A stretch of DNA of 64,000 bases, taken from NCBI GenBank assembly GCA_905221615.1, contig CAJNDT010005914.1, positions 1,540,556 to 1,604,555 on the forward strand. The letters are read 5' to 3'. Made by a program: the position numbers and the translations under genes. The notes under the pieces were generated by a model. That model saw only the letters and a list, made by a program, of their open reading frames with translations. It was not told the DNA's origin and made no database searches. This document shows positions 24,948-61,285 of this stretch, one piece after another. This stretch comes from Symbiodinium sp. CCMP2592 (lineage: Eukaryota; Sar; Dinophyceae; Suessiales; Symbiodiniaceae). How positions within the stretch are numbered: the first letter of the stretch is position 1; the number at the start of each line of letters is the position of its first letter.

Positions 24948-24975
24948 TATGGTGTTTGCTCTGGAGCCCGGGTCA
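24948..24975 (+). repeat. Left terminal inverted repeat (28 bp)
   Basis: Begins TATGGTGTTTGCTCTGGAGC and is a perfect reverse complement of 61258-61285. Confidence 0.9.
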
Positions 24976-25365
24976 GGGCCCAGCCGACGGGGTTCGGCCT
25001 AGGTTCAGCCTCAACCATCAGATTTGATCGATTTGGAACATTGATTTCTGAAACGTGTGAAATCGAGGTTTTGAGTCCCTTAGATTTTTCTCAAGTCAAA
25101 TCTACCGACGGGGCCCCTCCCCTGGCCTTCCCCCACCGTGCATACTCTGCATTTTTGGCTCACACAGCTTGTGTGACGTCCCAAATTCAAAAGTGAAGCA
25201 AGACAGTACTAAGTGTCCACGTGCTTAAATTGGTAATCTTGGGGAATTCTGGGAAGCTGACTGTAACCCTCTCAGAACAATCAGAACCATACTGCGACGA
25301 CCACATGATGCACATGCGTTGTACAAAAGTCAGCTTAGGGATAGAGCAGCTCATGGAAAGTAACG
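24976..25365. other. Left subterminal region
   Basis: Non-coding. Near its right end the block GAGCAGCTCATGGAAAGTAA is imperfectly duplicated (25344-25363 and again about 25389-25408), a possible transposase-binding subterminal repeat. Confidence 0.45.
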
Positions 25366-28300
25366 TTGCGTAGGGATCGAGCAGCTCACAGCTCATGGAA
25401 AGTAACGTTTTCAGTTTGCCGGAAAGTTTTGACACCGGCGACGGTGGCCTTGGCCGCCACGGTTCGAGGGCTGCCAGAAACAAGCTGCCCGCTGCCCCAA
25501 TGGCTGGTGCTGTATACAGTGCTTGTGAAGGAAAGTGAGCATGCTGAGATCACACATCTGTGCCGTGCCACAGATGTGTTTGAGAATTGGAGCAATGCGA
25601 CCCCAGCAGAGCTTCATGAAATCCAGCTTTGGAGCGGCTACGGCCAAAGACAGAGGAAGCGTGACCGTGATAGGCAAGCTCAGAAAGAGTTTTTTTGTTT
25701 CGTGCTGGATCGTTGCTTTCTGCTCCGGTCGCCGGTGCGATTGAAACGGGAGCAGTTTCAAGGCAGGCAGTTGCAGCGTGTGTCTCGTCCGACCTATGAG
25801 GTGTACAAGCTTTTGAGTGAAGAGCCAGGGCAACACTTGATGGCTTGTCCTTCTGGGGGAGATTTGCTCCCAGAGTTGAAGCGGGAGAAAGGGTGGTTGG
25901 TGCAGGTCCCACGGGGCCTGGCCGTTCTGTCTCAGACACAGGCAGTGGCCACACCACTGAATCTGTGGATGCCGGGGAGCATGATGGCAGGCTTGCACGT
26001 TCAGGTATCCCGTACCCCCTCAGCTCAGCCTCAGGCGGCTCAGGAACTGGAACCGGCAGAGGCAGAGGCGGCAGAGGCAGAGGGGTCAGCAGACGGTGCT
26101 GAAGAAGTTCCGGAAGAACGTGCTAAAGCAGCACGTGGAGTCGCTGGAGCTAAGGCCAGATGGAACAAAAGCATTGTGCGTTTGAGCTCCATGCAGGAGA
26201 TACAAATCGTCAGGTTAAACTTCGCCATGCAGAATGCCAAGGACATTCCTGTCGTTGTGAGCTGCGTGGCCCGTTTCCTGGAGCCGAAGCTAGGGCCCTT
26301 CGACCCTGAAGCTCTTCAGCAGATGCTTGAGTCTGTGCCTGGTAAGTACAAACTCCACACCCAAATGCTTCGCCTGGATTGGCTTCACATGCACCACAGA
26401 AGATGTCTGATGGCAGAGCAAGCCCTCTGTTCTCACACGTCTGTCAGCAGATTCTTGAGCATGGATGCCAGCCCCCAAGGGGGGTACGAATACTTGGCAA
26501 TGACAGAGGAAGTTCTTGTGAGAAAGTTGCCGTTCATGCCACCGGCAGACCCATTTAAAGGTTTCTCACACGAATTTAGGTTAATGCCTGTCATGACTTT
26601 GGCCAGAGGAGAGGCCAGGACATTTGTCAAGGCCCAAAGGTTGAAGTCTGCAATAATCCTGGAGGCTGGAGAGCCTCATTTCCAGCTTTACAGGAAACAA
26701 GTGAAGGGCTGGGTTTCAGATCAAGGAACGGAGCGATTGATACCGGAATGGCCCATAGGCGACGAGGCTGCCATGAAATCCTTAGCAGCATCCTTGAAGG
26801 AGGAGGCCACCCTAGAAAACCTGGCTGCTGGCACAAGTGAAGCCTTCCTTTTCAACAGCCTGAAGCATCCAGGGATCCTCCACGTGCTCTTCAATTCACT
26901 TGAAGAGTGCTGCAAAGGGTGCCCAAGGTGGGATGCAGTCGAAAAGCAGGTGTCTGCCGTCTCGAAGCTTTTGACGAACAGAAGCTATAAGGAGATCGTG
27001 GTTTCAGTCATGCTGAAGCATGCCAGCGGAGAGCACAGGCGGATTGTTCAACGATACCATGGTGAACTGCTGTCCTGGCGGTGGGAGAGTCTCCATGTAA
27101 CGTTGAAGAACTACTTGGAGGTCAGGCCGATTCTGTTGGAGCATTGGGATCGTTCTCTTTTGTCGTCCGATGCTGCTTTGTGCGACATGGTCGATGCTGC
27201 TCTGAAAGATCCTTTCCATCTTGCATATGTGCATTGGGCCTTCATGTTTGCTTGCTTTGTCCAAGGTTGGGCACATTGGTTTGAGGGTTGTTTTTGCCAC
27301 GAGAAGGAACTGCTGGAGAACAAGTCCTCTCGGACTCGGACCACGATCAAGTGCCCGTGGAAAGGCAAACGATCTTGTGTGCTCTGTGCAGGCTACAGGG
27401 ATGAGATCACCAACTCGGTCTATCGTTTGGCTAGCGCCTCGCTCACAGAGGTGCTCCTGGAGCTTCCAGACGAGGTGGGTGCTGCAATGGCCTTGATGGA
27501 CCAGAAAGCCCGTGACAAATGGGCTTCCATTGTCAAGGGAAAACTGGACTATCTAGGTCATGTTCCTCATCTGCTTGCGGCCGGGTTTGCCCATCATGCA
27601 AGACCAGACCTGTATTCTTTGCAACAATCCAAAGATGCTGTTCAAAAGTGTTTCACTCAGTACGAGTCTCTCCGGGGGCAGGGTCGAACCACGGAACTGC
27701 TTGAGAGTTTGTTTCACAGAAAAGGAGATGCAGGATTGGCTGAGCAGTTATGGAGCTTTTGCGAAAGCCCCGCGGACAAGGTGCTGGAGGACTTTCCCCT
27801 GGCATTTGCTGAAATCCAAGATCGCTCGTTCTGCCCCATGGCGGAACGAAGCACAGAGCGACAGCACGTGCTGATCAAAATAGCTTGCCGGAGGACACTT
27901 CGACATGCTGGGCCAGCAATGACATGTGCACGGGCCCGCAGGAGCCAGCTGCAGAGTATGATCGACACTCCTAAGGAGTGTAGTTTCTTGGAAGCCAACT
28001 GGGGTTCCAAAGGGCTGGACCTGGAACTGCTTTCGCACATCATGCCCAAGGCCGAATGCATGACCAAGACCCGCAGCTACCGAGTTGCTCGCATCTACGG
28101 CTATCACGAAGAAGACCATTTTCTCGACCACCAGGCTGATGAAGAAGCAGCTGCGAAAGCCTTGCAGGATAGAACACAGCTGGCACTCCAGGATGCGGCT
28201 GAGGACGATGCATCAGGAGTCAAGACTTTGGAGAAAAAACAGTGGATGATAGTAGACTACCTGAAGTCCCAATTGCAGAGTGGCATCTTGTTCAGCTTGC

Positions 28301-29805
28301 CTGAAGGCCTTTTCCGGGCCATGTTGGCAGGGCCCCCCTCAGAGGACTCTGAGGCTGTGCATCCAGAGATATGTTTGGATTTGGAAAGTTTTGCTGAGGC
28401 TTTGCTGCCCGAGGACAATCCAGACGTATCTGCCGAGGACTTGATCTACGGCTATGTGGTGGATGCGAGGCCTGAGAGAAGAACACAGAACAAGGCCCTG
28501 GCTCAAGAAAGCCACAAGGGTTTTGTGCATGTGCTCCGCTTCACTGCTGTTGATCTGCAACAGCCGGCCGTGCCTCATGTGTTGTACAGCAACACAATGC
28601 AACACACGTTGGATTTCGCAAAGGTAGCAACTCCGGCCATGCTGAAGTTGTTGTCCTCGGAACTGCGTGTTTGGACGGCAAAGGCAACTTCGGTTAAAGT
28701 GCAGATCATGCCCCAGGCAGGGTCTTCAGATGCCCTTGTGCACGACGGCCCTTCTGCGGCGCTCAGATTGCCTGCCTTCGTCACAGACGATGACATGCTG
28801 GATGATCTGGCACGTGAGGATGGAGTTGTGTCGCTTCAGCATGCAGCAGCAGGGCCGCAAGCCGAAGCTGGCATTCTCCCAGACAACCAGCAATCCTTGT
28901 TGCAGGGTCTTCTTGAAAGGCGTGCACTGGGTGAAAACTTTGTTGATGTCATTCAGCTTCCGCATTACAATGCGGATGCATGCAGGAGCCTTGTAGACAA
29001 GGGACTTGTCCAGGCTCGCGTGGACGATTTTGGAGCAGTCACTGTAGCATTGAGCGAGGCCACCAAGGTCACCAGTCGCTTGGCTCTCCGAGACCCAACA
29101 CCGCTTTGCCAAGAAGAGACGGTCATGAACAATGGCCCCGGCAGGAATAAACTTGCGTGGTTGAAGATGCTGTTGCAGGATGGATGGAAAGCTGCTGCGA
29201 CCGGTGATTGGCACAACCGAGGGCAGGCCCTGAACTTGCCCTCAGGTCTCTTGGACAGGCCAGAAATGCACTTGAAAGCCTTGTGTTTTCATGTCAGCCT
29301 GTGGGAAAAGGGCTTGCTCAAGATCTCCCACTCAGGCAGTGTTGCCTATTATGAGATGCTTCTGAAAGAAACTACTCTCTCTGCTGTGAATGACTTCAGT
29401 TTAAAGCAATGCAAGGAGTTTGCTTTCGAGAGAAAGCGGAAAAGGCCAGCACACGGACAGAGTGCTGCGAGACCCGAGCAGGGCATCTTGCGGCTTTCTT
29501 TGGACCTGCCCAGTCTGCCTGCCGTTCCGTGCCGTGTTCCGGGAATGGCGGACTTGACAGTCCACTTTGATAACTGGAGTCATTCATCCGGTCATAGACG
29601 AGGATTCATACAATGCACACGGCATGCGAAGTGCCGGCGATACAGCTTCCTCAAGAGCCATTGTGACCAGGCCACTTGTGTGGCCTGGCTTCTGGTTTGG
29701 TGCCAAGAGGGACACAGATTCGAGGACACCCACCAGCATGTTGCATTCAACCCAGACCCCGCTTCTGTGTCCCGAATGAAAGAGAGGCAGCGGCTGGGTG
29801 CGTGA
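25366..29805 (+). CDS. hAT-like transposase, 1479-codon frame
   Basis: Probably the DDE-type enzyme that moves the surrounding element. The frame opens with TTG; the first in-frame ATG is at 25840 (residue 159). Protein-like sequence upstream suggests a 5' exon or non-ATG start. Features: basic N-terminal segment (QRKRDRDRQ, about residue 100); acidic EAEAAEAEG linker (about 225-250); RFLSMDASPQGGYEYLAM (about 361-378), a likely first catalytic Asp. Next is a helical insertion, then WRWESLHVTLKNYLEVRPIL (about 570-590), matching the RW.S...L...L pattern of hAT transposases. Cys/His-rich segments are CHEK...CPWKGKR (about 655-680) and a C-terminal CTRHAKC...HC...C. Position next to the TIR and the 8-bp duplication agree with hAT. 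It lacks an obvious hATC dimerisation motif, so a related DDE family (for example KDZ) remains possible. The frame is uninterrupted, suggesting recent activity. Confidence 0.6.
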   Translation: MRRDRAAHSSWKVTFSVCRKVLTPATVALAATVRGLPETSCPLPQWLVLYTVLVKESEHAEITHLCRATDVFENWSNATPAELHEIQLWSGYGQRQRKRDRDRQAQKEFFCFVLDRCFLLRSPVRLKREQFQGRQLQRVSRPTYEVYKLLSEEPGQHLMACPSGGDLLPELKREKGWLVQVPRGLAVLSQTQAVATPLNLWMPGSMMAGLHVQVSRTPSAQPQAAQELEPAEAEAAEAEGSADGAEEVPEERAKAARGVAGAKARWNKSIVRLSSMQEIQIVRLNFAMQNAKDIPVVVSCVARFLEPKLGPFDPEALQQMLESVPGKYKLHTQMLRLDWLHMHHRRCLMAEQALCSHTSVSRFLSMDASPQGGYEYLAMTEEVLVRKLPFMPPADPFKGFSHEFRLMPVMTLARGEARTFVKAQRLKSAIILEAGEPHFQLYRKQVKGWVSDQGTERLIPEWPIGDEAAMKSLAASLKEEATLENLAAGTSEAFLFNSLKHPGILHVLFNSLEECCKGCPRWDAVEKQVSAVSKLLTNRSYKEIVVSVMLKHASGEHRRIVQRYHGELLSWRWESLHVTLKNYLEVRPILLEHWDRSLLSSDAALCDMVDAALKDPFHLAYVHWAFMFACFVQGWAHWFEGCFCHEKELLENKSSRTRTTIKCPWKGKRSCVLCAGYRDEITNSVYRLASASLTEVLLELPDEVGAAMALMDQKARDKWASIVKGKLDYLGHVPHLLAAGFAHHARPDLYSLQQSKDAVQKCFTQYESLRGQGRTTELLESLFHRKGDAGLAEQLWSFCESPADKVLEDFPLAFAEIQDRSFCPMAERSTERQHVLIKIACRRTLRHAGPAMTCARARRSQLQSMIDTPKECSFLEANWGSKGLDLELLSHIMPKAECMTKTRSYRVARIYGYHEEDHFLDHQADEEAAAKALQDRTQLALQDAAEDDASGVKTLEKKQWMIVDYLKSQLQSGILFSLPEGLFRAMLAGPPSEDSEAVHPEICLDLESFAEALLPEDNPDVSAEDLIYGYVVDARPERRTQNKALAQESHKGFVHVLRFTAVDLQQPAVPHVLYSNTMQHTLDFAKVATPAMLKLLSSELRVWTAKATSVKVQIMPQAGSSDALVHDGPSAALRLPAFVTDDDMLDDLAREDGVVSLQHAAAGPQAEAGILPDNQQSLLQGLLERRALGENFVDVIQLPHYNADACRSLVDKGLVQARVDDFGAVTVALSEATKVTSRLALRDPTPLCQEETVMNNGPGRNKLAWLKMLLQDGWKAAATGDWHNRGQALNLPSGLLDRPEMHLKALCFHVSLWEKGLLKISHSGSVAYYEMLLKETTLSAVNDFSLKQCKEFAFERKRKRPAHGQSAARPEQGILRLSLDLPSLPAVPCRVPGMADLTVHFDNWSHSSGHRRGFIQCTRHAKCRRYSFLKSHCDQATCVAWLLVWCQEGHRFEDTHQHVAFNPDPASVSRMKERQRLGA

Positions 29806-30435: not shown

Positions 30436-30548
30436 CGGTGCCTTGGTGCTGTCGGAGGGCCGGAGTCTTTCTCGACTTGCAGGCCCCGACGGTACTTAAG
30501 GCATGCAGGCGGTGAGTCCAGGAAAGGGCTGAGGGATGAGGGTGAGGG

Positions 30549-31841
30549 ATGGGGTGTTGGGGTATGTTAGGATTGACAGTTTTGTTTTTGAGTGCCTTGC
30601 CGCCAGGCCGATTGAAGCCGATGCCGGAGCCGAAGCAGGGCCCCAAGCCGCGAGAAGAGAGCTCGGATTCAGAAAAGGACAAGCCTGCGGGCAAGTCCAA
30701 TTCCTCGGACAAGTCCGAGGAGAAATCCGAGGAAAAGTCCGAGGACAAGTCCGAGGAGAAATCCGAGGAAAAGTCCGAGGAAAAGTCCGGGAGCGGCAGC
30801 GAGGAGAAGAGCGATGGCTCGGCAGACTATGGGAAATCCAAGAGCAAGTCGCACTCCCGGGGCCGGAGCCGCAGCCGACGGGCAAAGAAAGAGAAGAAAG
30901 ATAAAAAAGAGAAAGATAAAAAGGAGAAGAGGAAGACTTCCCCTTTTGATGCCCTGCTGAAGCAGGGCGGCCATGATGAGGGCACCGGCCTCACCGGCAC
31001 CGGGGCCGGGGATGATGACGAAGAGGAGAAGAAGACATGGGGGCCCTATGGGGCGGTCCATGCTTTCAAGATCGCCGAGTTGGAGACGGTGAAGCCGGCA
31101 GGATATACGAAGCAAGGACAATGGGTGGAGGAGAAGGTGCGGTGCCCAATATGTTGGGCAATCAAGCCAAGAAGCACGCTGTTCATGCACATAACATCGA
31201 ACAGCGGCTGCATGTCATGGCAGCAAAAGCTGCGGGGATTGGAACCCCCGCCAGCAAAGTTCCCTTGCCGCTTCTGCGGCAAGGCGTTCTTTAAGGCGCC
31301 AGACCGCGAGCAGCACGAGTACGGCTGCGGCGCCAAAAAGCCGGCAGAGCCCAGTGAGCCTCCGCAGGAGCCAAAGGAGCGGAAAAACAAGAAGAAAGAG
31401 AAGAAGAAGGATCACCGGGACAAGAATGATGAAAAGGAAAGGGCACGGCCATGCTCCTGGTCCGAGGTGTCGAGGCGAGGCGGGCTATCGAGGCGAAGCG
31501 TCCGAAGCGAGGCCTCCAGGCCAAGCAATGCCTCGGTAGCCTCGCCGCCGAGATCGAGGGGAAGCTCGCGCGAGCGACGGAGCCGGGGCGCTGTGGTGAT
31601 AGTGCCCCGCCGTGGCCGGGATGTCATCGATGTCCCGTCTGTCTCCGTGCAGAGGCAGCGGTTGGACTCCCGCAGCCGAGGCCGGGGCCGCAGCAGATCC
31701 AAGCACTCCCGGCGCCGCCAGGAGAGTCGCCAGAGACAGAGTCGGCAGGGCCAGAGCCACCAGAGCGAGGGGGGCGAATCCTCAGATCAGAGGGTGGTGG
31801 CGTTCAACCGACTTCTGTCTTTGGGCGAGAGGATCCTCTGA
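30549..31841 (+). CDS. SR/KE-rich zinc-finger protein
   Basis: ATG at 30549; ATG 30621 (MPEPKQGPKPREESSDSEKD) is an equally likely start because the sequence becomes charged only from there. Layout: SDKSEEKSEEKSEDKSEEKS repeats (about residues 50-85); RS stretch (SHSRGRSRSRRAKK); KEKKDKKEKDKKEK; a Cys/His pair CPIC...H...C (about 200-225); then a C2H2-like CRFCGKAFFKAPDREQHEYGC (about 243-263); a Lys-rich stretch; and a C-terminal RS domain ending in SLGERIL. Disordered and highly charged, it is likely nuclear and RNA-binding. It follows the transposase on the same strand inside the giant element and may be an accessory protein of it. The role is inference. Confidence 0.5.
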   Translation: MGCWGMLGLTVLFLSALPPGRLKPMPEPKQGPKPREESSDSEKDKPAGKSNSSDKSEEKSEEKSEDKSEEKSEEKSEEKSGSGSEEKSDGSADYGKSKSKSHSRGRSRSRRAKKEKKDKKEKDKKEKRKTSPFDALLKQGGHDEGTGLTGTGAGDDDEEEKKTWGPYGAVHAFKIAELETVKPAGYTKQGQWVEEKVRCPICWAIKPRSTLFMHITSNSGCMSWQQKLRGLEPPPAKFPCRFCGKAFFKAPDREQHEYGCGAKKPAEPSEPPQEPKERKNKKKEKKKDHRDKNDEKERARPCSWSEVSRRGGLSRRSVRSEASRPSNASVASPPRSRGSSRERRSRGAVVIVPRRGRDVIDVPSVSVQRQRLDSRSRGRGRSRSKHSRRRQESRQRQSRQGQSHQSEGGESSDQRVVAFNRLLSLGERIL

Positions 31842-32409: not shown

Positions 32410-32520
32410 CGTCCCGCCACCGTCCCGCCACCGTCCCGCCCCTGTCCCGCCCCTGTCCCGCCACTGTCCCGCCACTGTCCCGCCACTGTCCCGCCACTGT
32501 CCCGCCACTGTCCCGCCACT
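32410..32520 (+). repeat. 12-bp minisatellite, array 1
   Basis: About nine units of GTCCCGCCACTG (early units GTCCCGCCACCG/GTCCCGCCCCTG). Same orientation and unit as arrays at 46738 and 54510. Confidence 0.9.
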
Positions 32521-32540
32521 AAGCACCACGGCTCAAAAAG

Positions 32541-32558: not shown

Positions 32559-32592
32559 AAGCGACCGGGTTCCTTTCGGGGTCCTGGGGTTC

Positions 32593-35500
32593 TTGTTGGG
32601 TCTGCTGCGGGTTTTGTTCGTTCAGGGGGTCGCCGGGCGGGAGCTTAGAATGCCATGGCGACGCATCCTTGTGCTGCTGCTTCTACTGCACATTTTCTTG
32701 ACTGTGAGTTTGAGTGTGCAATTTGCAGGAAACAGCACAAGCTTGCAGAGAGATGTTCGGCTCAATCTGCAGAGCAGTGTGCACTCTCGGCCCGTAAGAA
32801 CGGAACCGCTTCAGGTCTTGGCAGGCCAAAGCAAGATACCAACAAGATGCGTACATGGACTAGGCGACAAGAGTTGCAGCGGCTCTTTACATATCAATAC
32901 ACATGGTCGCAGAAACAGGGCACGCAGGCAACAGCGCAGGTCAGAACGGAGCTTTATGCGCTGGCAAGCGCCCGTCCAATCACTCAGTCAGCTCAGAGAA
33001 ACCAGCGGGATCAGCTGGCAATGGGGAGAGTCCAGAGCGGTTCGGACGCTGCTACAGCCAAAGCATCCACCACAGATCTCAATCAATTGGATTAGGATGC
33101 TTCCACGGACTGAGGCATCCTCGTCCGCTCAAACAGTTGCACAAGACACCATGCAATCGGCGCATGCTGACACGGTCAAGGTTCCGGTATTCTTAATCGT
33201 TTCTAATCGATCACAGCAGCACTGGTTCTCTGATTCCCTTGATATTGAATTGAGCGTTCCTCATTGCTTCAGGGAGTGCGAACGGAGGTCCTCGTGTGAG
33301 GATGTCGATTCTTACTGTCTGTTGAGATGGACAACACTGGTGGAAGGGACTGAGGAATCCTCGCCCACTGGCGCTGGCCTAAACTTGCAGCTAACAACTT
33401 GTTGGTGGTTGGAAAAGTGTAGGCCATGCCGTGGTATGATTTGCCAATGCAATAGAGAACAATTCACTTGTGGAACCTTAGCTGAGCGGCACACTTTCAT
33501 CTTGCAGGGACATTCAAGGCAGGTTGTCCTCATGACCAAGGCTATGGCATCCTCGTCCGTGCTAGTGCCGTGCTTGCGAGAACAGCGCAGGGATACACCA
33601 AATGTGCATGAAATGTGCGAAGCCAAATACAAGCAAACAAGCTTAGCGACCAGGCTCCTGAAGGTATGCTGGTTTGAGGCATCCTCGCTCACCGCTAACC
33701 CACGCTTCTCAGCATCCGGTGACAACTGGCTAGAGCGGCATCATGACGTTGCAGTTTCGAGCATGCCGACTTCTCACATCAATAGGACTGAGGTATCCTC
33801 GTCCACTGGTAAGAAATCCAGCCTGCCGGTCCAAGTTGAGGTATCCTTGCCTCAGCCTTTGATACCCGTGTGCGAATGGTCCTCAGCAAATTTAGCCTTT
33901 GCGGGGCGGACACTGGGGAAATCACGGATGGGGGTAGGAAGCAGAACTGGATCCATCAGCAGGCTTTCCTATTCACAGCTGCCATCAACCGCTATTCAGG
34001 GAGTTCTTCGTCTGGAAACGCTCATGGCGGCAGCCACAGGGACTGAGGCATCCTCGTCCGCTGGCCTTCACCTAAGTGTGAACCAACTGTGCCCATCTGT
34101 GACAGCTGTGCCCTCGTTATCCTCAATAGACCGTCCATGCGATCAGCTTCAACTGCGCATTCCCATGCAGCTAGACTTGCATCTGTCCTGGGAAAAGTGT
34201 CTACGGCACTCTGATGTATGCTGCAGCTGCAATTGGGGAAGTTTTAGCCGCCATCCCAACATACGTGACGGCACTCTCGCTGAGGTGGATTGGTGCCAGT
34301 CCTGGATGCGGCCAGAACCTTACTACGCGAAGGCAACTCATACTGTGGACTCAGTTTGTTTGGAGAATCCGGTTGCCGGCAAATCATATGACAGAGTGGA
34401 GTGCATTCAGTTGAGGTATTCACGAACAGTTTTGATTCGATTCGTTTCTCATAGGATGAAGTACATTCCAAACCCCTCTAACTGGGCTCATGTCTTGGTG
34501 AGAATAAACCCTGGCCAAGTTCTGCACTTACAGCCAAAGAACATCCACATGAACAGTACGTCTCGCACCTCTGTCACACGCTGGCAGCACTACACACATG
34601 AGGTTCTGCCCCTGGTTTCGATGGCTGATCCTCGAAACTATAGGGCGTCGCCACGGCCTGAGGAATCCTCGGCCTGGATCTGGCGTACAATACTCGCAAA
34701 GGCCGCAGGGACAGAGGAATCCTCGTCCGTTTGTGCGCACCTGAACATGAAACAAACGTACCCAGCAATGCCGTCAGCGTCAGCTTTAGGATGTCCATGC
34801 GACCAGTGCCTACTGCACAGTTACATGCACTTCAAGTTGCCTCCTCTGGTGCGTCCTGCTTTGTGCTGCCGCTGTACTCGGAGAGCTTTCCACAGCCCTC
34901 TCCGCACTGGCTGCAGCGCTCTTGCCGAGGTGGACTGGCTTTTGACACGTGAAGGGTCTGAGCCTTATCAAGGAAGGGCAGCTGAGACTTTCACCATGGT
35001 TCATTCAGAGTCTCCGGCTATGGGCGTTTCTAGTGTCAGTGTTGGCGGCGCTAGGTTGGGGGACCCTCACATTGTGATATCTGCACATGCCACTGTCCGG
35101 CCTGTTCTGCCCTTAACACATATGAACGAGGGCTGTATCCAGGTGCCTGTGAATCCAACGAGTGCTCACTTTGTATTCCGCAAGACATTGTATCCTGCAG
35201 CGACCAGTTCATATCATGGCTTAACAACGCTCTGGGAAACATACGACAGAGAGGCCCGGCTCTTGGCACCGGTGGGAGATCAATGGAAGTGCATTGGCGT
35301 GCCGCCGCCTGAGGAATCCTCGGCCGAGTCAATTGTGTGGACTGATTATTGTGCTGTAGATGACCATTGCCGCAGGTTTGAGTACTCTCAGACATATCCC
35401 TATGCTAGCTGGGTCTTTGCGTTTGCGACCTTCCACTTCGATTGGGAGCAACACTCACCACAGCACTATATCACATCCACTTCTTACCATTTCAGCTTCA

Positions 35501-46555: not shown

Positions 46556-46737
46556 CTCGCTCCCTTCCTTCTCCTCCCTGTGATCAGAGCCTGGGTGGAC
46601 TTCGGTCCTCGTAGGGCCCTCCGGGGCGGCTACGTTGTAGGGGGGCGCCGTCCATGACGGCAGGCAGTGCATAGTCATCGCCAGGCCCACGCTAGTCGAG
46701 CGGGAAAGGACTCCGACTGCGAACCAAAGTCAAAAAG

Positions 46738-46972
46738 TCCCGCCACTGTCCCGCCACTGTCCCGCCACTGTCCCGCCACTGTCCCGCCGGTGTCCCGCCA
46801 CTGTCCCGCCGGTGTCCCGCCACTGTCCCGCCGCTGTCCCGCCGCTGTCCCGCCGCTGTCCCGCCGCTGTCCCGCCGCTGTCCCGCCGCTGTCCCGCCAT
46901 TGTCCCTCCACTGTCCCGCCACTGTCCCGCCTCTGTCCCGCCGCTGTCCCGCCGCTGTCCCGCCGCTGTCCC
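46738..46972 (+). repeat. 12-bp minisatellite, array 2
   Basis: About 19-20 units of TCCCGCC(A/G)CTG(T/C) with occasional GGTG variants. Lies 313 bp after the LINE 1 stop and about 275 bp before the LINE 2 ATG. Confidence 0.95.
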
Positions 46973-47247
46973 AAGTGCCACGAGCGGTTCAAATCTAGAT
47001 TGATCCTAGTCTGAGCTGCATGGTTTCAACTGCCATTTTCTTGGTGGACTGAAGAATTGCACACATACTTGACTGCGCCTCTCTCCGGCAATTTCTCGAA
47101 AGCTGCTGTGGACAGAAGAGATTTCGATTTCTGTTTTGTTGCTTCAGTGAGGGCATCTGCATATAGGAGATTCTGGCTGATTGTCAAGGCGAGCAACTAG
47201 GACATACATCTCAATTGCTCGGCTCGGTCCCAAGTCCGAGCACCACA
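46973..47247. other. LINE 2 5' region
   Basis: No gene or repeat seen; presumably LINE 2 leader or residual host sequence. Confidence 0.4.
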
Positions 47248-50200: not shown

Positions 50201-53200
50201 GGCGGGTGCTATGTGATCGCAGGTGTCACGCTCTTCAGGATAGATTGCGCCTCTACGATGTCTGTGTTTGGTCTACCTTAACATACGGTATCCTCGAACT
50301 TGGAGTCGATGAATATGCATTGCGAAAAGTCCATCAAACTGCTGCTCAACATGTTCGCATCGTTGTCTGCCGAGCCTACCACCTGAGGCCTGTTACCACG
50401 ATAGAATTGTACACTCGCTTGGGTAAGCCACTACCTTGGATTGCACTCAGGGACATGCTACTACAACGACTTCGCAAAGCTCAGGCTGCAAAGGCGCAGT
50501 TGCCACCTGACGACCTTGTACATTCGAGCGAGTGGCCTAACAGTACGCTTCTGCAGGACCGTGACCGCGCTGAGAAGATTTGCAAACTACATCAAGAAGT
50601 CACTCATCAGGATGAGCAGCGCTTCGAGTGTCCCACATGTGCCCGTAGCTTTCGCACCGAAGCCACACTGAAGCGACATCAACGAGATGCGCATGGACAA
50701 CATTGCGATACCCAGCCTATCTTCGATCCAGTGCGTGATGCATTGAAGGGAAGCTCCACGTGCGCACACTGTGGACTGCGCCTTCGCAATAAGACGAACC
50801 TTATGCAACACATCAATGCAAGAGCCTGTCCGATGTTCGACCCCAATGCTGCTGCCATTCAACTTCCCTATGCGCAGCAGGAGGCCACGCTTGGACTTCT
50901 ACATGATGGCGGCGCCGTTCGACTCCTACAGGACTCGCGCAGTTTGCAGATGCTCAGATCAGCATGCGCGTTATGTGGACAGATATGTACACTGAAAGGG
51001 CTTCGCAAGCACTTTGGGTACAGTCACGCGGAGCTGGTACCCAAGGCTCTGACTCTTTCTGAGCACTTGCACCGAGCACACATCGCGCCACACGGGCAAG
51101 GTACCTGTAAATATTGCGGGGAGTATGTGAAGGGCAAGACTACTCACGTCTGCGCCGTAGTCCTACATGCTGCTGCCGTGGAGGTCGCTACTGTGAGCCC
51201 ATCCACTGCGACTCCTGATGAGGTCACCTCTTCAGCGATGAATACCTCAGCAGCCCCTGCAGGTGAACCATCCGCTGATGTCAAACATCTGTGTCTGCAT
51301 TGTCATCGATGCTTCTCGAATCAGGCGCATCTTCGAGCACATCTTCGCAATGGTCCGACGAAGTACAGGGCTCAATGCAGTAAGACCGTTCCGGGCACAG
51401 TGAAATGCAAGAAATGTGGGGCTATCATGCCCTCCTGTGTGTTTCCTGAGCACTATCTGAAGCATGGCACCAAGACGCAACAGACATTGGATAACATGCA
51501 GCACTCATTGGCTCGACCTGCAGGGAAGATTGCCGAAACTGATAGCCATCATGACCGGGGCGCCGCTCTTCGTCAACAACGGCCTCACGACTGCCGCGGA
51601 TCAGCTCATGGACCCGATGATGGGAGTGGGAACGGAGCAAAGCCACGAAGAGCTACTTCAATCCCTAGGCTCAGTCCTTTCAGGCTCTCCAATGCTCCGC
51701 CAGCTCGTGTCGCAGGCTCCAACGCCCCAGCAACGGCAGACACCATCTCGGGCCCCGCCTGGCAAGCGACCTCGCGGACAAAACGATCAACGCCGTCTCG
51801 AAGCAGATCACGCTCACGATCCACAGGACATGCGGCAGATCATCCGACTCCTGACGATCTTAATCTTGAGACAAGAGGCCACCCTTCAGGCGATGTCCCT
51901 CAACACGGAGATCATCCTGTTCATCCAAGCTGGAGCTGGCTCCTGTCTACCCACGTTGGTCGAGACCTCGGCAGCTTGGCATCGGCAAGTTCAGAACAAC
52001 ACCGTGGATGCTCCTCTTCGCTTACGCATGGCGTCCAACTTTTGGAGTGCGCTTTCCGCGAGAGTGGAAATGGTCCAGGCCAATCTTCAAACGGAGCTCG
52101 GGCAGGGGCTACGGGACAAGGGCGTGCTGAATGCAGATGGAGCGTGGGTCTTCATGGCCTGGGATGCATCCAGCAAGTCACTCAAGCCAACAACGAAGAC
52201 CCCCATTCCAATGACGGAAATGGTCTCAATGATCGCGAGCATTGCGGAACTAGTCAAACTGCCAGAGATGATCAACCAGTTCAAAGCTTTGAAAGCGCTC
52301 AAGAGTTTGGACTTGAAAAGCCCAACCATCATCGTGCCTTGGAAGATGGATGTCTCCCTACGCCACGAACGAGCGCAGCAGCTTTGGCAGCATCTGATGC
52401 GACTGGTGGGGAACAGTGTTACGCAGCTCCTCATGTGCCAGATGCGCCCGGCGAATCTGAAGAGGTCGAAGCTGAGCGAACAGATCTCCAAGTGTGTATT
52501 CGGCCCGAAGTAAAACATGAAGTCCTCGAACTACGGCTCTTCAATGACTGTAACTGCTGTTACATGAATGCGGTGCTGATCATTCATCTTTGGGTGATTG
52601 CCTCTTTGCCTTCAGCGAGGGCATTGCACACATGGTTTCGGGGTATGTTACAGGTGCTTGACCACTTCGAATGGAAAGCGTCAGTGTATGATATCCCAAT
52701 CTTTCAAAACGCACTTACTGATTGGGAATGTGGTCATGCATACGGGCTTCAGCACGATGCTGCTGAATTTTATCAGTGGGGGCTCCAATGCCAGCTCTTT
52801 CCTCAGTGGCCTGGCTCATGGCAACAAAGACGCGACGGTGAAACAATCACCTCAGATTGCACGCCTATCATGCTGCCTGTTCTTTCCGAGGGAGCCTCAC
52901 TACAGGATCACATTCGACATTGGCATGCATGCATGGACGGACTGCATGCGCTGGCTGCTCAGGCCGACTTCATATGCATCCAGGTGGGCGACGCACCTAC
53001 CCTAGTGGAAGGAGCGTGCGCTGAACTTGCCATCCCAGGTTGCGGACTTCGTATGCCCGTTTTCACACAGGCTCCTGGCATAGATAATCGTGAGCACTTG
53101 ATTGTGTGGCAGTCCTACATCGTAGTGGCCACTGCGCTACGGCGCGGATCAACGCGCGATGCAGGACACTATCAAGCGCTGCTATACACTCATCAACAGG

Positions 53201-53451
53201 TCTATCTATGTGATGACGCGCGATCCTCAAGGCCACTGACGCATGCACAAGTACTTCGCGAGGTCCTGGATACTTTCCTCATATGGGCAGTGAGAGCTGA
53301 TGTAGCAGACATGCACTTGGTCCGTCGCCAGGTACCATCAGGCACCGAAGATGTCCCAGAAATTGCGGATTCTGGTGATGATGAGCCTCTGAGGCCTATC
53401 TCAAAGCCCGCAGTCTCGCTCGGAGAACTGCTACAGGCTCACTTTCAGTGA
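47248..53451 (+). CDS. LINE ORF: EN-RT-zinc finger-USP (LINE 2)
   Basis: Starts at ATG 47248 (MYVWSILLLYSF); the frame is open from 47215 (2078 codons; numbering below from there). AP-type endonuclease about 150-400: LVWNAGGLPYDEF, IISETRM (Glu), LLLGDFNTD (Asp/Asn), RIDFACT (Asp), GSRHLPLAG (His). RT about 640-960: VALDLQKAFDLV (A), GIKQGAKDAPLLWN (B), TIYADDMH (C, about 875), LNINYDKSVVM (D). Zinc fingers about 1136-1420, first CPTCARSFRTEATLKRHQR; six Cys/His sites in all. USP about 1770-2010: FNDCNCCYMNAVL (Cys), LQHDAAEFYQW, and RDAGHYQALLY...LCDDA (His/Asp). It lacks the long repeat-rich N-terminus, PAM2 motif and ExSS palindromes of LINE 1, showing two distinct lineages. The DNA shares no obvious long identity with LINE 1. 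Intact frame. Confidence 0.8.
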   Translation: MYVWSILLLYSFRLCGGHEGGGFAMEVTEVAQDIKIVDTSCATKHHGVWAQGDFGLITSSNKQKILKRSFNRACKRALVQGSTTYKGRTFSASDVPSAFHQQQVATSSSPEQPADVKTRAAIFASTFSLTRRPRPPKPRLRYLVWNAGGLPYDEFMIWASTAPYDVLIISETRMSFSSEWEVPGWSCVHTGHKHAGVLVMVAHACCPPDRLSWSEVVKGRLIHARLHLSTTINIIGIYQHVWDVAKPTCVSQRKQVWDALTQVLKLCPSRAITLLLGDFNTDCEPLRGHVGPAHAHQRIPSCQRFGDRDRLHTCLHDFQLVALNTWHGWQPTYEFRGQSSHQSRIDFACTRTPQADFTARRVHHERDFPVACYRQGSRHLPLAGSIPAKWTPWQPQPSELVYSARLRQELCAACRDNTPQWYNMQQEVESRLRDLPECCVAQAEAVMKDCVSKHFPVRRQERTPKPFQQPDLVGQTRQMWALRKALQQQHGASLSAVFRGWHLRSAFQAISRKLRARSKEIRKQRLHTFLSETAECAVKKDMYSWYRQIALLCPKQARTKIHLRSDRGISLGPEDSLNTLRDYYSRLYEDNSFRMYDLPRLDELPFSADDLCAELRRLPVHKALTPTAVPAVMWRSQAQLIAPILHQELQHLWCRDKCRLPQRWIAGHLALLGKPSKPPTKPANLRPICLQHPCSKVLSGVVTRQASELITPMFSEVPCFAYLAHRSTSQCLLRVYEHCRLVRELCTRTREHNRTRKDKAALAGGVQVALDLQKAFDLVSRPFVLQCIDEAQLPSDLATSLKSSVLSGEYTIKHKGISCSLEAHRGIKQGAKDAPLLWNLVVLGVLKKLASKLGWSWIRAHLTIYADDMHICWVHKTGHHADRIFRELGQVLSCLEAMQLNINYDKSVVMMSFAGTRFQQFQQTYIRRLKTGPVIRCPMPDGTKRDLSLVSKTSYLGVIISYHRFERDTVDRRVQAARTAFSRLRRVLCDRRCHALQDRLRLYDVCVWSTLTYGILELGVDEYALRKVHQTAAQHVRIVVCRAYHLRPVTTIELYTRLGKPLPWIALRDMLLQRLRKAQAAKAQLPPDDLVHSSEWPNSTLLQDRDRAEKICKLHQEVTHQDEQRFECPTCARSFRTEATLKRHQRDAHGQHCDTQPIFDPVRDALKGSSTCAHCGLRLRNKTNLMQHINARACPMFDPNAAAIQLPYAQQEATLGLLHDGGAVRLLQDSRSLQMLRSACALCGQICTLKGLRKHFGYSHAELVPKALTLSEHLHRAHIAPHGQGTCKYCGEYVKGKTTHVCAVVLHAAAVEVATVSPSTATPDEVTSSAMNTSAAPAGEPSADVKHLCLHCHRCFSNQAHLRAHLRNGPTKYRAQCSKTVPGTVKCKKCGAIMPSCVFPEHYLKHGTKTQQTLDNMQHSLARPAGKIAETDSHHDRGAALRQQRPHDCRGSAHGPDDGSGNGAKPRRATSIPRLSPFRLSNAPPARVAGSNAPATADTISGPAWQATSRTKRSTPSRSRSRSRSTGHAADHPTPDDLNLETRGHPSGDVPQHGDHPVHPSWSWLLSTHVGRDLGSLASASSEQHRGCSSSLTHGVQLLECAFRESGNGPGQSSNGARAGATGQGRAECRWSVGLHGLGCIQQVTQANNEDPHSNDGNGLNDREHCGTSQTARDDQPVQSFESAQEFGLEKPNHHRALEDGCLPTPRTSAAALAASDATGGEQCYAAPHVPDAPGESEEVEAERTDLQVCIRPEVKHEVLELRLFNDCNCCYMNAVLIIHLWVIASLPSARALHTWFRGMLQVLDHFEWKASVYDIPIFQNALTDWECGHAYGLQHDAAEFYQWGLQCQLFPQWPGSWQQRRDGETITSDCTPIMLPVLSEGASLQDHIRHWHACMDGLHALAAQADFICIQVGDAPTLVEGACAELAIPGCGLRMPVFTQAPGIDNREHLIVWQSYIVVATALRRGSTRDAGHYQALLYTHQQVYLCDDARSSRPLTHAQVLREVLDTFLIWAVRADVADMHLVRRQVPSGTEDVPEIADSGDDEPLRPISKPAVSLGELLQAHFQ
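51464..52513 (+). CDS. Overlapping +1-frame protein of LINE 2
   Basis: 349 codons from ATG 51464, or 320 from ATG 51551 (MTGAPLFVNNGLTTAADQLM). It is in the +1 frame of the 2078-codon ORF, beginning at the last zinc finger and ending just before the USP. The order of blocks matches the LINE 1 counterpart: LRQEATLQAM, LFIQAGAGSCLP, WVFMAWDASSK, FKALKALKSL, VPWKMDVSLRH and MCQMRPA. The zero frame over the same DNA yields an RSRSRSRS-type low-complexity sequence. Predicted mainly helical; no known domain recognised. Same position, same frame offset and same length in two diverged elements argue strongly that it is real. Confidence 0.65.
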   Translation: MAPRRNRHWITCSTHWLDLQGRLPKLIAIMTGAPLFVNNGLTTAADQLMDPMMGVGTEQSHEELLQSLGSVLSGSPMLRQLVSQAPTPQQRQTPSRAPPGKRPRGQNDQRRLEADHAHDPQDMRQIIRLLTILILRQEATLQAMSLNTEIILFIQAGAGSCLPTLVETSAAWHRQVQNNTVDAPLRLRMASNFWSALSARVEMVQANLQTELGQGLRDKGVLNADGAWVFMAWDASSKSLKPTTKTPIPMTEMVSMIASIAELVKLPEMINQFKALKALKSLDLKSPTIIVPWKMDVSLRHERAQQLWQHLMRLVGNSVTQLLMCQMRPANLKRSKLSEQISKCVFGPK

Positions 53452-54509
53452 TCCGCTCGAGTGGTAGTGTGAACCATAATTCGTTTGCTTGGCCGATGCT
53501 CTTCCGTTCATTCGTTTCTGCCGCTTTTTAATGATTTTCGGGGGTCCATGGGACAACACTTGTTTCGTTCTTTCGAGCCCCACCGTGCTAAGCGGGTGAG
53601 CTCAAACTTTTTGGGCAATCAGCTGTGACAGTGATGTTCATTTCTGGCTTTGAGCCTTTGAATGTCCACGCGTGTGAGCTGACTCACATGCGCTGTGACA
53701 GGTTTTGCATAGGCTGTGGATGCAGTTATGGTCTTTGGCGCCCAAACAAGAAAGGCCCCTAAGATGGCCGCGCTGAGGACTCGTCCTTGCTTCATTGGTA
53801 AGCGCTGCTGGGACTAGAACAAAATGTCCGGACTCCCACCAGAAGGAGCCCAGCAGATAGCCGGTGATCACGTCCAGCGAACTGGTGTGGCACTCACCGA
53901 GATTGCATCTCGCATGTCGTCTGGGGTTCACTGTAACAGGGATTCCTTTCCTTTTACTCTTTTACTCTTGTTTGCCCTTAGTTCTCACAGTGCACACGAC
54001 ATTGTGAAATTTTGCAATACGGGCATGCACAAGTTCAGGGTTGCGCGTAGCTAAATTGGCATTGCGCACTCAAATCTTCTGTGTTGCATCGGCCAGCTTG
54101 TCAAACCAGCATATTTCTGTGTGACCATGCATCGGCACACACATGTATAGCACTATGGATGTGCGTTTGGCCACCTTTTCGTACAGTTTTAGTGGGCCAA
54201 AACGTCACCAAAATTATGATGCGCGCGCGCGCGCGCGCGCGCGCGCGCGGGGGTTGGGGCCTGAGACAACATCATACAAGATGTTTACTTGGACTCCATT
54301 TCCACTTTTACACTTTTTACTCTTAGCAAGTTCGTTGCATAGCGCAGCGGACCGGCCAACTTTAGGCACCAAGGTGCAACGGCCGTCACGTTTTCGGACT
54401 TCTGTTGTTAGTTTGGAGGGCTTGCTCGTCTACAAGACGACCAGTTTCGAAAGCGAAGCTGTTGCCCACGTCAGCGAAGAACCTTTCTCGCTACGTTGCA
54501 AAGCAAAAG
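53452..54509. other. LINE 2 3' flank
   Basis: No gene recognised. Contains a (GC)n run at 54221-54249 and leads into minisatellite array 3. Confidence 0.45.
54221..54249 (+). repeat. (GC)n microsatellite
   Basis: About 14 GC units, a sequence prone to Z-DNA. Confidence 0.95.
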
Positions 54510-54576
54510 CCGCTGTCCCGCCGCTGTCCCGCCGCTGTCCCGCCGCTGTCCCGCCACTGTCCCGCCACTGTCCTGC
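54510..54576 (+). repeat. 12-bp minisatellite, array 3
   Basis: About five units of CCGCTGTCCCGC/CCACTGTCCCGC, same unit and orientation as arrays 1 and 2. Confidence 0.9.
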
Positions 54577-54879
54577 CTTTTCAAGACTGTTTCCAGGTTC
54601 TTTTGCTGCTTGTTTGGCTCGCGAGGGTTGAACCAGTATCTAAAGTCTTCACACACAACACACACAGTTGTCACACATAGCATGCTGTTTGCTCTATGCT
54701 TGCAAATGCGAAGCTGCGAAGCTTCTGTATGCACGGAACAACACAACTTTTGAACTCCGAGTCTTCAGGCACGAATCATGCATAGTCATGCAGTGAGAGA
54801 GTCATGCAGCTGCTCTTAGCGGTCTGTTGCACACCATCAGGCATGCAAGAGAAAAAAGAAACACACGTCAGCTCACCTT

Positions 54880-56854: not shown

Positions 56855-57228
56855 GTTGGCTAACAGATTAATTCGACAATTAGCAACCAAGCCGGTTGCT
56901 GCAAATTACGTGCAACCGTGCTGCTGGATGTGAATTAGACAGAAACTGAACGGCGAAAACAAATAGGTTTCATTGGAGCAGACCGAGGCACGACAGAGCA
57001 AGCCAATCCATTAATGTGTGATTCCCATAGCACACCCACATATTCATGCTAGGGGTAGGGTTTCAGCTCAGCAGAGCGAGAGTTCGCTGTAGGAGCCTTT
57101 GGTGTTGCTTTTGAAACCATGGATGAAAGAATCCTCTGAGCTTTTCCCGCAGCCGTGTTGGGCCGCTCTGCCCAGGGTGTTAACTGGTGGGTGTACAGTG
57201 TACAAGAGACTGCTGTTCTGTAGTGAAC
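56855..57228. other. No recognisable gene
   Basis: Spacer between methyltransferase and coiled-coil gene; nothing identified. Confidence 0.4.
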
Positions 57229-58662
57229 ATGGCAGCTGCGGGATCGGCTGGGGAACCTGCGGCGGCGAGCGGAGAGACTGCACTGGGGGCACTGTGCTGC
57301 CAAAAGTGTGGCCAGTCGACGACCATGTCGCTGTCATCAGCGACTGGTCGAAATCCATTGCTCCGAGCCTGTAATGGCTGTTTGGCAACAGATCGCTGGA
57401 TCAGCCGCATCACAACGAAACCCAAGAACCGCGAAGAAACTGAAGACGAAAAGCAAAGGAGGGCGAACGGTATGAAGATAAAAGAGGACCTCAAGAAGAA
57501 GTCGGCTGAAGAGAAGAAAGCCTTCTACCTCGAACAGAAAGTCAACCGCCAAGCGGAGGACCAGAAGAAGAAAAGGACGTTCTCGTCCGCGGTGGGATCC
57601 GTGGAGGAGTCGAGGGAGGCCGCGGCGCTGAGAGACGATGTCACGAATTACATACCCTTTAAGAAATGGGCGGCTCAGGAAATGGCACTCCGAATCTATT
57701 CGAGTCTCGGTGAGGCGAAGGTTGCCTGGGAGAAGTTGCTTCAGGATCCGAGCACAGTGAGCATAATGGAACACGGTGAGGCGCTCGTGTTGGATTATTC
57801 GGGCATCCAAGTCCGTGGACGACAGTCCCACAGCCTCAAGTCAGCCATGCGGCAGAGGATGGACATCTCCGAGCAGAAGGATTTGGATGAGTACATGGAG
57901 GAGTCCGACTCCCGCATCAAAAGGGGCCGGTCGAGGCTGGCTGTGGAGATGACCGCGAACTCGGAAAAGACCGGCGACGAGCCCATGTCCGTCATCCCAC
58001 TGCTGACGGTTTCAAAGGATTTGAGCCAGCTGCGGGAACTGGAGGAGGCCCGAGATGCGGATCTGCAGATGCAGGCAATTGCCATAGAGGAAAGCCAGAG
58101 GCAGGAAAAGGAGGAGAGAAAGCGGAAGGCCGAGGCCGTCGAGAAGAGCCTGCCTCTGGAGAAGTTGGCCCTGCAGGCCTCCCGGAAGAAGGCCATCCAA
58201 ACGATGGGAGATGTTGTCCTCCGGAACCAGGCGACAATCACAGCACTCTCCGCTGAGAGCCAGAAGCTTTGTGAGTTTGAGAACCAGGACCTGAAGGACG
58301 AACTGAAAGAGAAGATGAGCCACGTCGACCGGGCTATTGCGGTTCTGAGTGAGGAGATCGCCAAGTATGACTCTGAGTGGGAGAAGAAGGAAGTGGAGGC
58401 CACAACCACGGCGGATGAGATGGCCGAGCTCCGAGGGGAGATCGCAGTGGTCCTCAAGGGGTTCCACTCCAACAACGACTCATGCAAGAACGTGAAGAAC
58501 AAGATCCAAGACGTGCGAATTTGGATGGCGAAGACGAAGAAATCGATCAACGAGCGAGAGAAAGCAGCTGCCAAAACAGCCGCTGGAAAGAAGATGGGCA
58601 AGCTTGCAGCAAGCATGCCCCTGGAAGCCTTGGCCGAGAAATCATCGTGGACTACAGCTTGA
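57229..58662 (+). CDS. Coiled-coil protein with N-terminal Cys cluster
   Basis: The frame is open from 57187; ATG 57229 (MAAAGSAGEPAAASGE) has a good context. CQKCGQS...CNGCLATDRW (about residues 25-55) is a possible zinc-binding CxxC...CxxC. Long charged helices follow: EDLKKKSAEEKKAFYLEQ and QEKEERKRKAEAVEK, then KMSHVDRAIAVLSEEIAKYD. No known family. It ends at 58662 while a second frame (from about 58645) continues with clearly protein-like sequence, suggesting one gene interrupted by a frameshift or a missed intron. Inside the giant element, same strand as the methyltransferase; role unknown. Confidence 0.5.
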   Translation: MAAAGSAGEPAAASGETALGALCCQKCGQSTTMSLSSATGRNPLLRACNGCLATDRWISRITTKPKNREETEDEKQRRANGMKIKEDLKKKSAEEKKAFYLEQKVNRQAEDQKKKRTFSSAVGSVEESREAAALRDDVTNYIPFKKWAAQEMALRIYSSLGEAKVAWEKLLQDPSTVSIMEHGEALVLDYSGIQVRGRQSHSLKSAMRQRMDISEQKDLDEYMEESDSRIKRGRSRLAVEMTANSEKTGDEPMSVIPLLTVSKDLSQLRELEEARDADLQMQAIAIEESQRQEKEERKRKAEAVEKSLPLEKLALQASRKKAIQTMGDVVLRNQATITALSAESQKLCEFENQDLKDELKEKMSHVDRAIAVLSEEIAKYDSEWEKKEVEATTTADEMAELRGEIAVVLKGFHSNNDSCKNVKNKIQDVRIWMAKTKKSINEREKAAAKTAAGKKMGKLAASMPLEALAEKSSWTTA

Positions 58663-59390
58663 ACCCCAAGCAGCTGCTGGAGAAGCTGGCCCCGGTCACC
58701 TTCGATCTTGCTCGGGGGAAGAGCCTCTGCGAGACAGTGGCCACCCTCGACTACTACCGACTTCAGCAGTCGTGGGTGCTTGAGAAGATGAAGGCGAGTG
58801 GGTCGAACTCCTGCTGTGCGGTGATATCCAAGAAAGCAGTCGCCAAAAGGCTGAAGGACCAGCTGATCCGGCAGTACCCTGAAACTGGCGACTCCGAGGG
58901 GGATGCGATGGCAGGATTCCCGACCGAGATGCAGGACACCTTCAGCTTGCAGTTCGGCCAGCGTTTGGGGGGCACAGCCTCGTTGTGGACCCGGACAGAC
59001 ATGAACTGCCCGATGCTCATGGTTTGCCTGGAGGGCAAGCTCACAGTGGGCGGGGTGCCATCGAAGCACCTGCAGGCCGCGACCTTGGCAGAGCTGCCCA
59101 AGAAGCTCGAGAAGATGAATGCCAAGGATTTGGCCCAGCTTGTGAAGACCAAGGGCTGGATGGTTCAGGTGCAGGCTCAAGGCAGCATCGTCATTCCGCC
59201 AGACACGTGCTGGTTCGAGGTTTCCTCGGGGGAGACTGTGCACAGCCTCAGGATGCTGATGGCTCGCGAGTCGCTGGCTGGGCCAATGAAAGCTTTCTTG
59301 GAGAAGATGCAGTCGGAGGGCAGTCTCCAGGATGGCGATTCTTACTCCAAGATGCTGGCATGGCTCCGAGGGAACAATGCTGCGGCATAG
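58640..59390 (+). CDS. Continuation of coiled-coil gene
   Basis: Within the open frame 58482-59390, protein-like sequence begins near REIIVDYSLNPKQLLEKLAP (58640) and runs to MLAWLRGNNAAA. The part before 58640 overlaps the previous ORF in another frame and looks spurious. Helix-rich with a compact C-terminal part (MLMVCLEGKLTVGGVPSKHL, VPPDTCWFEV-like strand segments); no known domain. Probably the C-terminal half of the protein beginning at 57229. Confidence 0.45.
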
Positions 59391-59417
59391 GCCAGCAAAA
59401 CAAAGGCCGGGGCATCG

Positions 59418-60360: not shown

Positions 60361-60531
60361 CAAGGTGTGGAGGGCATTGCAAACCAGAAGAGTTTGCAGT
60401 GCCAAAGTTTTGACGGGAGCAAAGGGCCACCAGTAGGTTTGTGTGCCGTAGTCCTAGTTTTGACTCGTGTTGACAGGCGGTTGAAAAAAACAGGGAGTCC
60501 GAGTGCCGTGTGAGTGAGAGGGGCCACCCAA

Positions 60532-60634
60532 AAACCCTAAACACCTAACCTTCAAACCTAAACCCTACCTTAAACCCTAAACCCCAAAACCCTCAACCCT
60601 TAAACCTTAACCCTAAAACCCCAAACCCTAAAGC
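60532..60634 (-). repeat. Degenerate telomere-like CCCTAAA tract
   Basis: About 13 units of CCCTAAA, CCCTTAAA, CCCAAAA and similar. The C-strand of the TTTAGGG repeat used by dinoflagellates and plants, imperfect, 0.65 kb inside the right end of the giant element. Confidence 0.8.
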
Positions 60635-61257
60635 AGAGGAAAGTTTTGTGTTTGCACCGGGTAGGGACGCAGTTCTGACACGACATTTGTGTGCGAGCTG
60701 CAAAACAAACTGTTCGCGAATACTTGAAGCATTAGTTTCATGGCTTTGTGGGCAACATCACATAAAAGTGGCTGTAAGCTGAACATACCACCGTGTCCAT
60801 CCGAATTATCGTGTAGGTGCCGCTGTTGGCACTATTTCGTAAGAATATCACTATGACGTCTGTTGCCACTTTTGGAGCCCGGGCCATTCTTATGGCGGTA
60901 ATGCATCGTTTCTATTTCTGAAATAAACACGACCCAAGTTCCATCAATTTGGTACATCTGCACCGAAAGACACCTGCACTGGCAGTGAAAATGAGGTTCT
61001 GGGCTATAACTATCATTCGAGTCTCAAGTGAAAGTGATCGCCTCCTATTGACCGGCCCGCCGCTGCTTCTGTTGATATGTAAACAAAAGCCCGGAAATAG
61101 AGAGTTTTGGAACATTTGCAATTATGAGATGAACTCATATTGTTGTTGTTGGCCTCCAAACCCAGAACCTCGTGCCGGAAATTGTGTTTACCCCAAATAT
61201 GGCCATATTTGCCCGAACCTCATAGCTTTTTGGGGTAGGGGTTTGGGTAGGTGCGCA
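60635..61257. other. Right subterminal region
   Basis: Non-coding. Includes a perfect 16-bp palindrome AAATATGG-CCATATTT at 61195-61210, about 50 bp from the right TIR; possible binding site. Confidence 0.5.
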
Positions 61258-61285
61258 TGACCCGGGCTCCAGAGCAAACACCATA
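61258..61285 (-). repeat. Right terminal inverted repeat (28 bp)
   Basis: Perfect reverse complement of 24948-24975, ending ...AGCAAACACCATA. Confidence 0.9.

Follow-up and report, generated by a model that had tools for sequence, protein, structure and literature searches.

A 36.3-kb insertion occupies positions 24948–61285 of a 64,000-nucleotide stretch of the dinoflagellate Symbiodinium sp. CCMP2592 (contig CAJNDT010005914.1; this whole stretch is termed the window), and it is one 14.7-kb DNA transposon into which two retrotransposons of the LINE (long interspersed nuclear element) type, together ~22 kb, have inserted. This division is made because sibling copies have a shorter span, because the gap that separates them from the window copy is bounded by minisatellite sequence and because the extra DNA holds reverse-transcriptase frames. 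The element very probably belongs, as a young member, to a Symbiodinium lineage of multi-gene DNA transposons, in which a putative transposase, encoded by open reading frame 1 (ORF1), travels with a C5 cytosine DNA methyltransferase (DNMT).

The ends of the insertion were established first of all from the sequence of the window (Table 1). Positions 24948-24975 and 61258-61285 are exact 28-bp reverse complements and GTCACCAC abuts both of them on the outer side, as the original prediction had stated; in 64 kb one would expect about 3e-8 exact pairs of this kind (equal base frequencies, the 8-bp match uncounted), so that the terminal inverted repeats (TIRs) are not a product of chance. The reading frame that was proposed to continue from one flank to the other does so, since the flanks spliced without the element give a 238-codon open frame (...DKVTT/HSLK...). 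The idea of one insertion event is likewise upheld by an empty site found in the same genome (C5052:1614700-1618300, L079; empty site at 1,616,777). It is on the window's own contig, 51 kb away from the left flank of the filled site. Its identity to the left flank is 99.86% (2085 bp) and to the right flank 98.9% (1524 bp, 13 gap positions), and one GTCACCAC copy stands at its junction. A paralogue of the host locus on C1091 (86%) is uninterrupted across the junction, and a match on C5311 (71%) also runs across it. The empty site and the uninterrupted paralogue thus indicate that the locus is duplicated and that a transposon entered one of its copies. The host locus is present twice, ~51 kb apart (C5052:1565103-1565502 and 1616385-1617184), with ~99-99.9% identity, and one of the two is filled. 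The interrupted gene had been taken for a tyrosine recombinase, which is unconfirmed, as the joined 238-codon ORF gives no PF00589 match at E<=1. The left flank also contains, at window positions 17376-19060, a tandem array with a unit of ~562 bp, the units being ~98% identical.

The true size of the unit was read from a genome-wide TIR search (1.10 Gb, 5,383 contigs, up to 3 mismatches tolerated), which gave 39 places that form 15 pairs and 9 single ends. Twelve of the pairs span 14,616-14,774 bp, and the three outlying spans are 2,026 bp (C4959), 27.6 kb (C3635) and 36.3 kb (the window). Compared with the nine of these twelve copies that were read whole, the window differs by one large gap (32,520-54,509), by small indels and in the left ~330 bp; the gap begins and ends within an 11-bp minisatellite that belongs to the element itself, and the two reverse-transcriptase elements are separated by a third block of this repeat. 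The original prediction had described a 36-kb composite, a giant Starship-like element with cargo, which would transpose as a whole, and it is true that the whole 36.3 kb is bracketed by TIRs and by a target site duplication (TSD). However, the nine whole-read copies are without the 22-kb middle, this middle consists of two reverse-transcriptase elements with the same minisatellite at the borders of each, the genome search gave no other 36-kb copy that contains these LINEs, and ORF1 is predicted to be of the DDE hAT fold, where a Starship would have a tyrosine recombinase captain (PMC11623301). A composite giant element is therefore highly improbable. As to the nested LINEs, the frame of the second one has endonuclease and C2H2 zinc-finger matches, both below cut-off, and in C3635 a 507-bp piece of it (L028 1-507) adjoins the minisatellite of that copy. 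Both window LINEs and the C3635 piece border the same (GTCCCGCCRCT)n minisatellite, and both window LINEs start with AAGYRCCACG; these LINEs may target the minisatellite. The C-terminal region of the LINE ORFs (window 32593-46425 and 47215-53451) resembles, by eye, ubiquitin-specific protease motifs, with no Pfam match at E<=0.1.

The window's family, termed family A, is young and has spread recently. Substitutions among ten copies amount to 0.02-0.14% in the leftmost 6.4 kb (from which the initial 480 bp were excluded) and to 0.02-0.49% in the right 6.2 kb, gaps being uncounted in both. Further paired copies with 8-bp duplications, by which the element was to be recognized as mobile, do occur: perfect 8-bp TSDs flank 13 of the 15 pairs, every one different. 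The 2,026-bp pair (C4959, L031 501-2526) is a non-autonomous derivative; it shares the TIRs of the full element, has the TSD CCCTCTAC, and its ends match the full element at 81-95%. Two copies, C717 (L015-L016) and C4908 (L029-L030), partly carry the flanks of C1333 (L019-L020) and C2244 (L023-L024) in swapped combination, and C1943 (L036) is also involved in flank sharing, which points to ectopic recombination or to misassembly with chimeric joins. These five contigs are what would favour an assembly artefact as the source of the whole structure, since joins inside a repeat may be chimeric; given that the 13 perfect TSDs all differ, that an empty site exists on the window's contig and that three families have a common signature, such an artefact has very little probability.

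The putative transposase is predicted to share the fold of Hermes, i.e., an RNase H-like core with a large helical insertion ahead of the final catalytic residue. In the ORF1 alignment D367 and D452 are found in 13/13 rows and E831 in all 12 rows with a residue at that position, the three being assigned without residue-by-residue matching to the catalytic residues of Hermes. Judged by fold and motif only, structure prediction shows ORF1 as a DDE transposase of hAT (Hermes) architecture, in agreement with the earlier suggestions that the 1479-codon ORF by the left end is the transposase and that the 8-bp duplication marks a hAT-type enzyme. To the 13 of 15 pairs of family A with perfect TSDs are added 3/3 tested pairs of a family B and 5/6 complete pairs of a family D, whereas TIR length varies from 28 bp (A) and 24 bp compared, with 1-2 differences (B), to 30 bp (D). 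ORF1 is stop-free over residues 1-1479 or 42-1479 in 12 contigs including the window, residues 1-41 vary between copies, and in four copies the frame is split near residue 600. One close relative, P0001, is attributed by its source to Symbiodinium sp. CCMP2592. For some ORF1 relatives the names given at the source (TOP2, rsgI2) resemble mis-annotations; the ORF1 relative P0004 and the ORF4 relative P0024 both lie on 145,136-base contigs of one ENA record, and the S. natans protein P0005 appears by eye to consist of ORF1 followed by an ORF2-like part.

Table 1. Features of the insertion in the window (positions are those of the 64,000-nucleotide stretch).
Feature	Position	Strand	Remarks
Left TSD copy GTCACCAC, 8 bp	24940..24947	.	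single copy in empty site
Left 28-bp TIR TATGGTGTTTGCTCTGGAGCCCGGGTCA	24948..24975	+	genome-wide TIR search
ORF1, 1479 codons, putative transposase of predicted hAT fold	25366..29805	+	D367/D452/E831 and WRW motif conserved
ORF2, 430 aa, SR (serine/arginine)/charged-rich	30549..31841	+	two C2HC-type zinc-finger-like motifs (by eye)
11-bp minisatellite (GTCCCGCCACT)n, left remnant	32411..32520	.	both nested LINEs sit inside
LINE-type retrotransposon 1 (nested), reverse-transcriptase frame of 4621 codons	32521..46736	+	outside the 14.7-kb element
Minisatellite block between nested LINEs	46737..46972	.	
LINE-type retrotransposon 2 (nested), reverse-transcriptase frame of 2094 codons	46973..54508	+	
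Minisatellite, right remnant	54509..54577	.	
C5 cytosine DNA methyltransferase (PF00145), 513 aa	55313..56854	+	
ORF4, zinc-ribbon-like, coiled-coil, predicted cupin/JmjC-like	57187..59390	+	746 codons in 12 other copies
Small ORF, 206 codons	59740..60360	+	two weak coiled-coil-type matches below Pfam cut-off
Degenerate telomere-like (AAACCCT)n array inside right end	60526..60632	.	
Right 28-bp TIR	61258..61285	-	genome-wide TIR search
Right TSD copy GTCACCAC	61286..61293	.	single copy in empty site

The family A unit of 14.7 kb contains about five ORFs. The SR/zinc-finger protein (ORF2), the C5 DNMT and the coiled-coil/cupin-like protein (ORF4) are part of the unit in families A, B and D, the three families with a copy read; being a conserved set in the same order across families, they are not the cargo that they had been supposed to be. 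All of the DNMT motifs GPPCQPW, VENS, PQHRERLWIRG and GNA were found. A 34-bp deletion at 58642/58643 shifts the frame of the window ORF4, and because of this the window copy is probably not autonomous at present; ORF4 is broken elsewhere in C1333 and C2244 and open in 12 contigs. The C-terminal domain of ORF4 (window 57187-59390; L046 6867-9086) is predicted to be cupin/JmjC/AlkB-like, with E628, E690 and H698 kept in 11/11 chosen relatives, and could represent either a metal site of unusual kind or a fold that is no longer active.

Family B (C852, C2291, C2535, C4887; 15.9-16.0 kb) has TIRs that start TATGGTCGTTGC and perfect TSDs in all three pairs read at both ends, the fourth, C2535, standing outside the count. 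Its member C852 has the gene order of the window family and is 48% identical to it in ORF1, 28% in ORF2 (low-complexity filter off), 42% in the DNMT and 47% in ORF4. More distant is C5081 of family D, with ORF1 30% identical to the window family and 72% to a S. microadriaticum protein; its genes follow the order of the window (ORF1, ORF2 relative, low-complexity repeat region, DNMT, shortened ORF4), the ORF2 relative being weak (27% over 73 residues). When the ends of seven other family D copies were predicted from DNMT position alone, five, of 15.8-16.2 kb, had both 30-bp TIRs and perfect 8-bp TSDs, and the remaining two had one end within the fetched stretch. Family C (C326, C3447, C4918, C1180) has DNMT and ORF4 matches at 45-46% (three of four) and 40-44%, respectively.

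It may be argued that the DNMT, ORF2 and ORF4 are passengers that contribute nothing to transposition, since some copies carry frameshifts in ORF1 or ORF4. Yet the gene order is constant across families with DNMTs only 36-42% identical, and of the 25 listed ORF4 matches with 29-30% identity, 21 have a DNMT match on the same strand no more than 3 kb upstream (two others have a DNMT 10-16 kb away and two have none listed; both match lists are lower bounds, and the pairing was counted by hand). Moreover, the ratio of nonsynonymous to synonymous substitution rates (Ka/Ks) is below 1 in 6/6 pairs. Mere passengers are thus improbable, albeit less so than an artefact.

Several observations weigh against the reading of the element as a member of a hAT-like, multi-gene lineage. 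At the level of sequence, the window ORF1 has no Pfam match, its 11 relatives match no transposase model in Pfam at E<=0.1 (two weak unrelated matches, one member each), and no transposase was matched by sequence in the PDB. The known hAT profiles (hAT dimerisation domain, BED finger) are unmatched in the 11 relatives at the same threshold. ORF1 may hence belong to another superfamily with 8-bp TSDs, e.g., KDZ/Zisupton, or to a separate superfamily of hAT fold: it lacks a Pfam transposase match, the yardstick of the structural comparison was Hermes, a hAT transposase, and Zisupton makes 8-bp TSDs too (PMC12730594). The KDZ transposase domain gave no Pfam match among the 11 members. Either of these assignments appears rather unlikely, although they are the strongest of the alternatives. 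Further points concern the copies. The TSDs of C717 and C4908 do not match, and C5081 has perfect 30-bp TIRs with unmatched flanking 8-mers. A distance of 23-52 kb separates the ORF1 match from the DNMT match in C606, C229 and C3447, likely owing to nested insertions. The left subterminal ~330 bp (window 24948-25280) exists in two forms, 83% identical (5/9 whole-read copies as the window, 4/9 the other), which means that the family is not uniform; one may ask if ends have been exchanged between subfamilies. The Ka/Ks pairs are few, non-independent, restricted to families B and C and partly drawn from decayed copies, and the cupin-like domain of ORF4 comes from a poor whole-protein model (predicted template modelling score, pTM, 0.38). 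Finally, CpG observed/expected is 0.68-0.70 in the element and 0.77 and 0.72 in the flanks, i.e., barely under the flank values, so that self-methylation is not visible.

DNA methylation is a classic host weapon against transposons and normally silences them, and it is for this reason that carriage of a DNMT is unusual. The course of events begins with a 28-bp-TIR unit, 14.7 kb in its siblings, that inserted into GTCACCAC and duplicated it; two LINE-type retrotransposons in the element's minisatellite bring the window copy to 36 kb. By analogy with hAT biology, ORF1 would excise the element by double-strand cuts and join it, with an 8-bp stagger, to the target DNA. The DNMT, aided by the accessory proteins, might methylate the element's own DNA, at its ends or in freshly moved copies; the methylated element would resemble the heavily CG-methylated host genome, so that transposition would be tuned and copies might pass unnoticed, because most of the Symbiodinium genome is methylated at CG (PMC5890265). 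Such self-methylation is offered tentatively. A bolder version, in which writing of cytosine methylation on the element's own DNA by a dedicated complex of DNMT, zinc-finger SR protein and coiled-coil/cupin protein is obligatory to transposition, the element passes as host chromatin and elements of this kind are one source of the unusual genome-wide CG methylation in Symbiodinium, is doubtful. That a DNA transposon lineage has retained its DNMT at identities as low as 36% suggests a benefit of the enzyme to the element. Since the family is young and repeated and many of its ORFs are open (ORF1 in 12 contigs, ORF4 in 12), excision, transposition and self-methylation are directly testable, and an intact dinoflagellate hAT-like transposase would be a lead for gene delivery in dinoflagellates.

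How does this lineage compare with known systems? Starships are also large eukaryotic elements with several genes, but they are fungal, typically ~100 kb, with a tyrosine recombinase captain first and tens of cargo genes (PMC11623301), whereas here the first gene encodes a predicted hAT-fold DDE transposase and the unit has 14.7 kb and about five ORFs; the likeness to Starships fails on enzyme type and size. The hAT elements, represented by Hermes, are alike in the RNase H-type transposase with a large helical insertion, the DDE residues, short TIRs and the 8-bp TSD, and the present elements differ in showing no Pfam-level similarity and in having 14-16 kb, four conserved genes, an ORF1 of ~1,470 codons and a C5 DNMT. 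The Pseudocercospora hAT with a captured histone H3 is another hAT with an extra gene, the copies of which were inactivated by repeat-induced point mutation (RIP), in contrast to the conserved gene set found here (PMC6710886). The 8-bp TSD of the KDZ members Zisupton and Dileera is matched by the present elements, and IS3EU has the same TAYGG..CCRTA ends but 6-bp TSDs (PMC12730594). Among fungi, DNA transposons that bear TET/JBP dioxygenases, hAT7 (7-bp TSDs) and Dileera of KDZ being two of them, likewise carry an enzyme that acts on cytosine methylation; theirs oxidise the mark, while the methyltransferase here would write it (PMC12730594). The virus-integrated Mariner-1_OLpv is likewise a DNA transposon with a C5 cytosine methyltransferase and differs in its mariner transposase, viral host and endonuclease as the third protein (PMC3627910). 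No DNMT-bearing hAT-like lineage was among the titles listed in searches of open-licence papers. A parallel is provided by SymbioLINE-Dnmt and SymbioDIRS-Dnmt3, which share with the present element the genus Symbiodinium and an intronless C5 methyltransferase in a mobile element (PMC5890265). In SymbioLINE-Dnmt the DNMT ORF is directly upstream of the reverse-transcriptase ORF, whereas ORF4 comes after the DNMT in the copies read from families A, B and D; neither nested LINE frame of the window has a PF00145 match, and the element's own ORFs have no reverse-transcriptase match. Both known elements are retrotransposons, and the DNMT described here lies inside a DNA transposon with TIRs and TSDs, which sets a branch of DNA transposons beside the retrotransposons with DNMT already known in the genus (PMC5890265).
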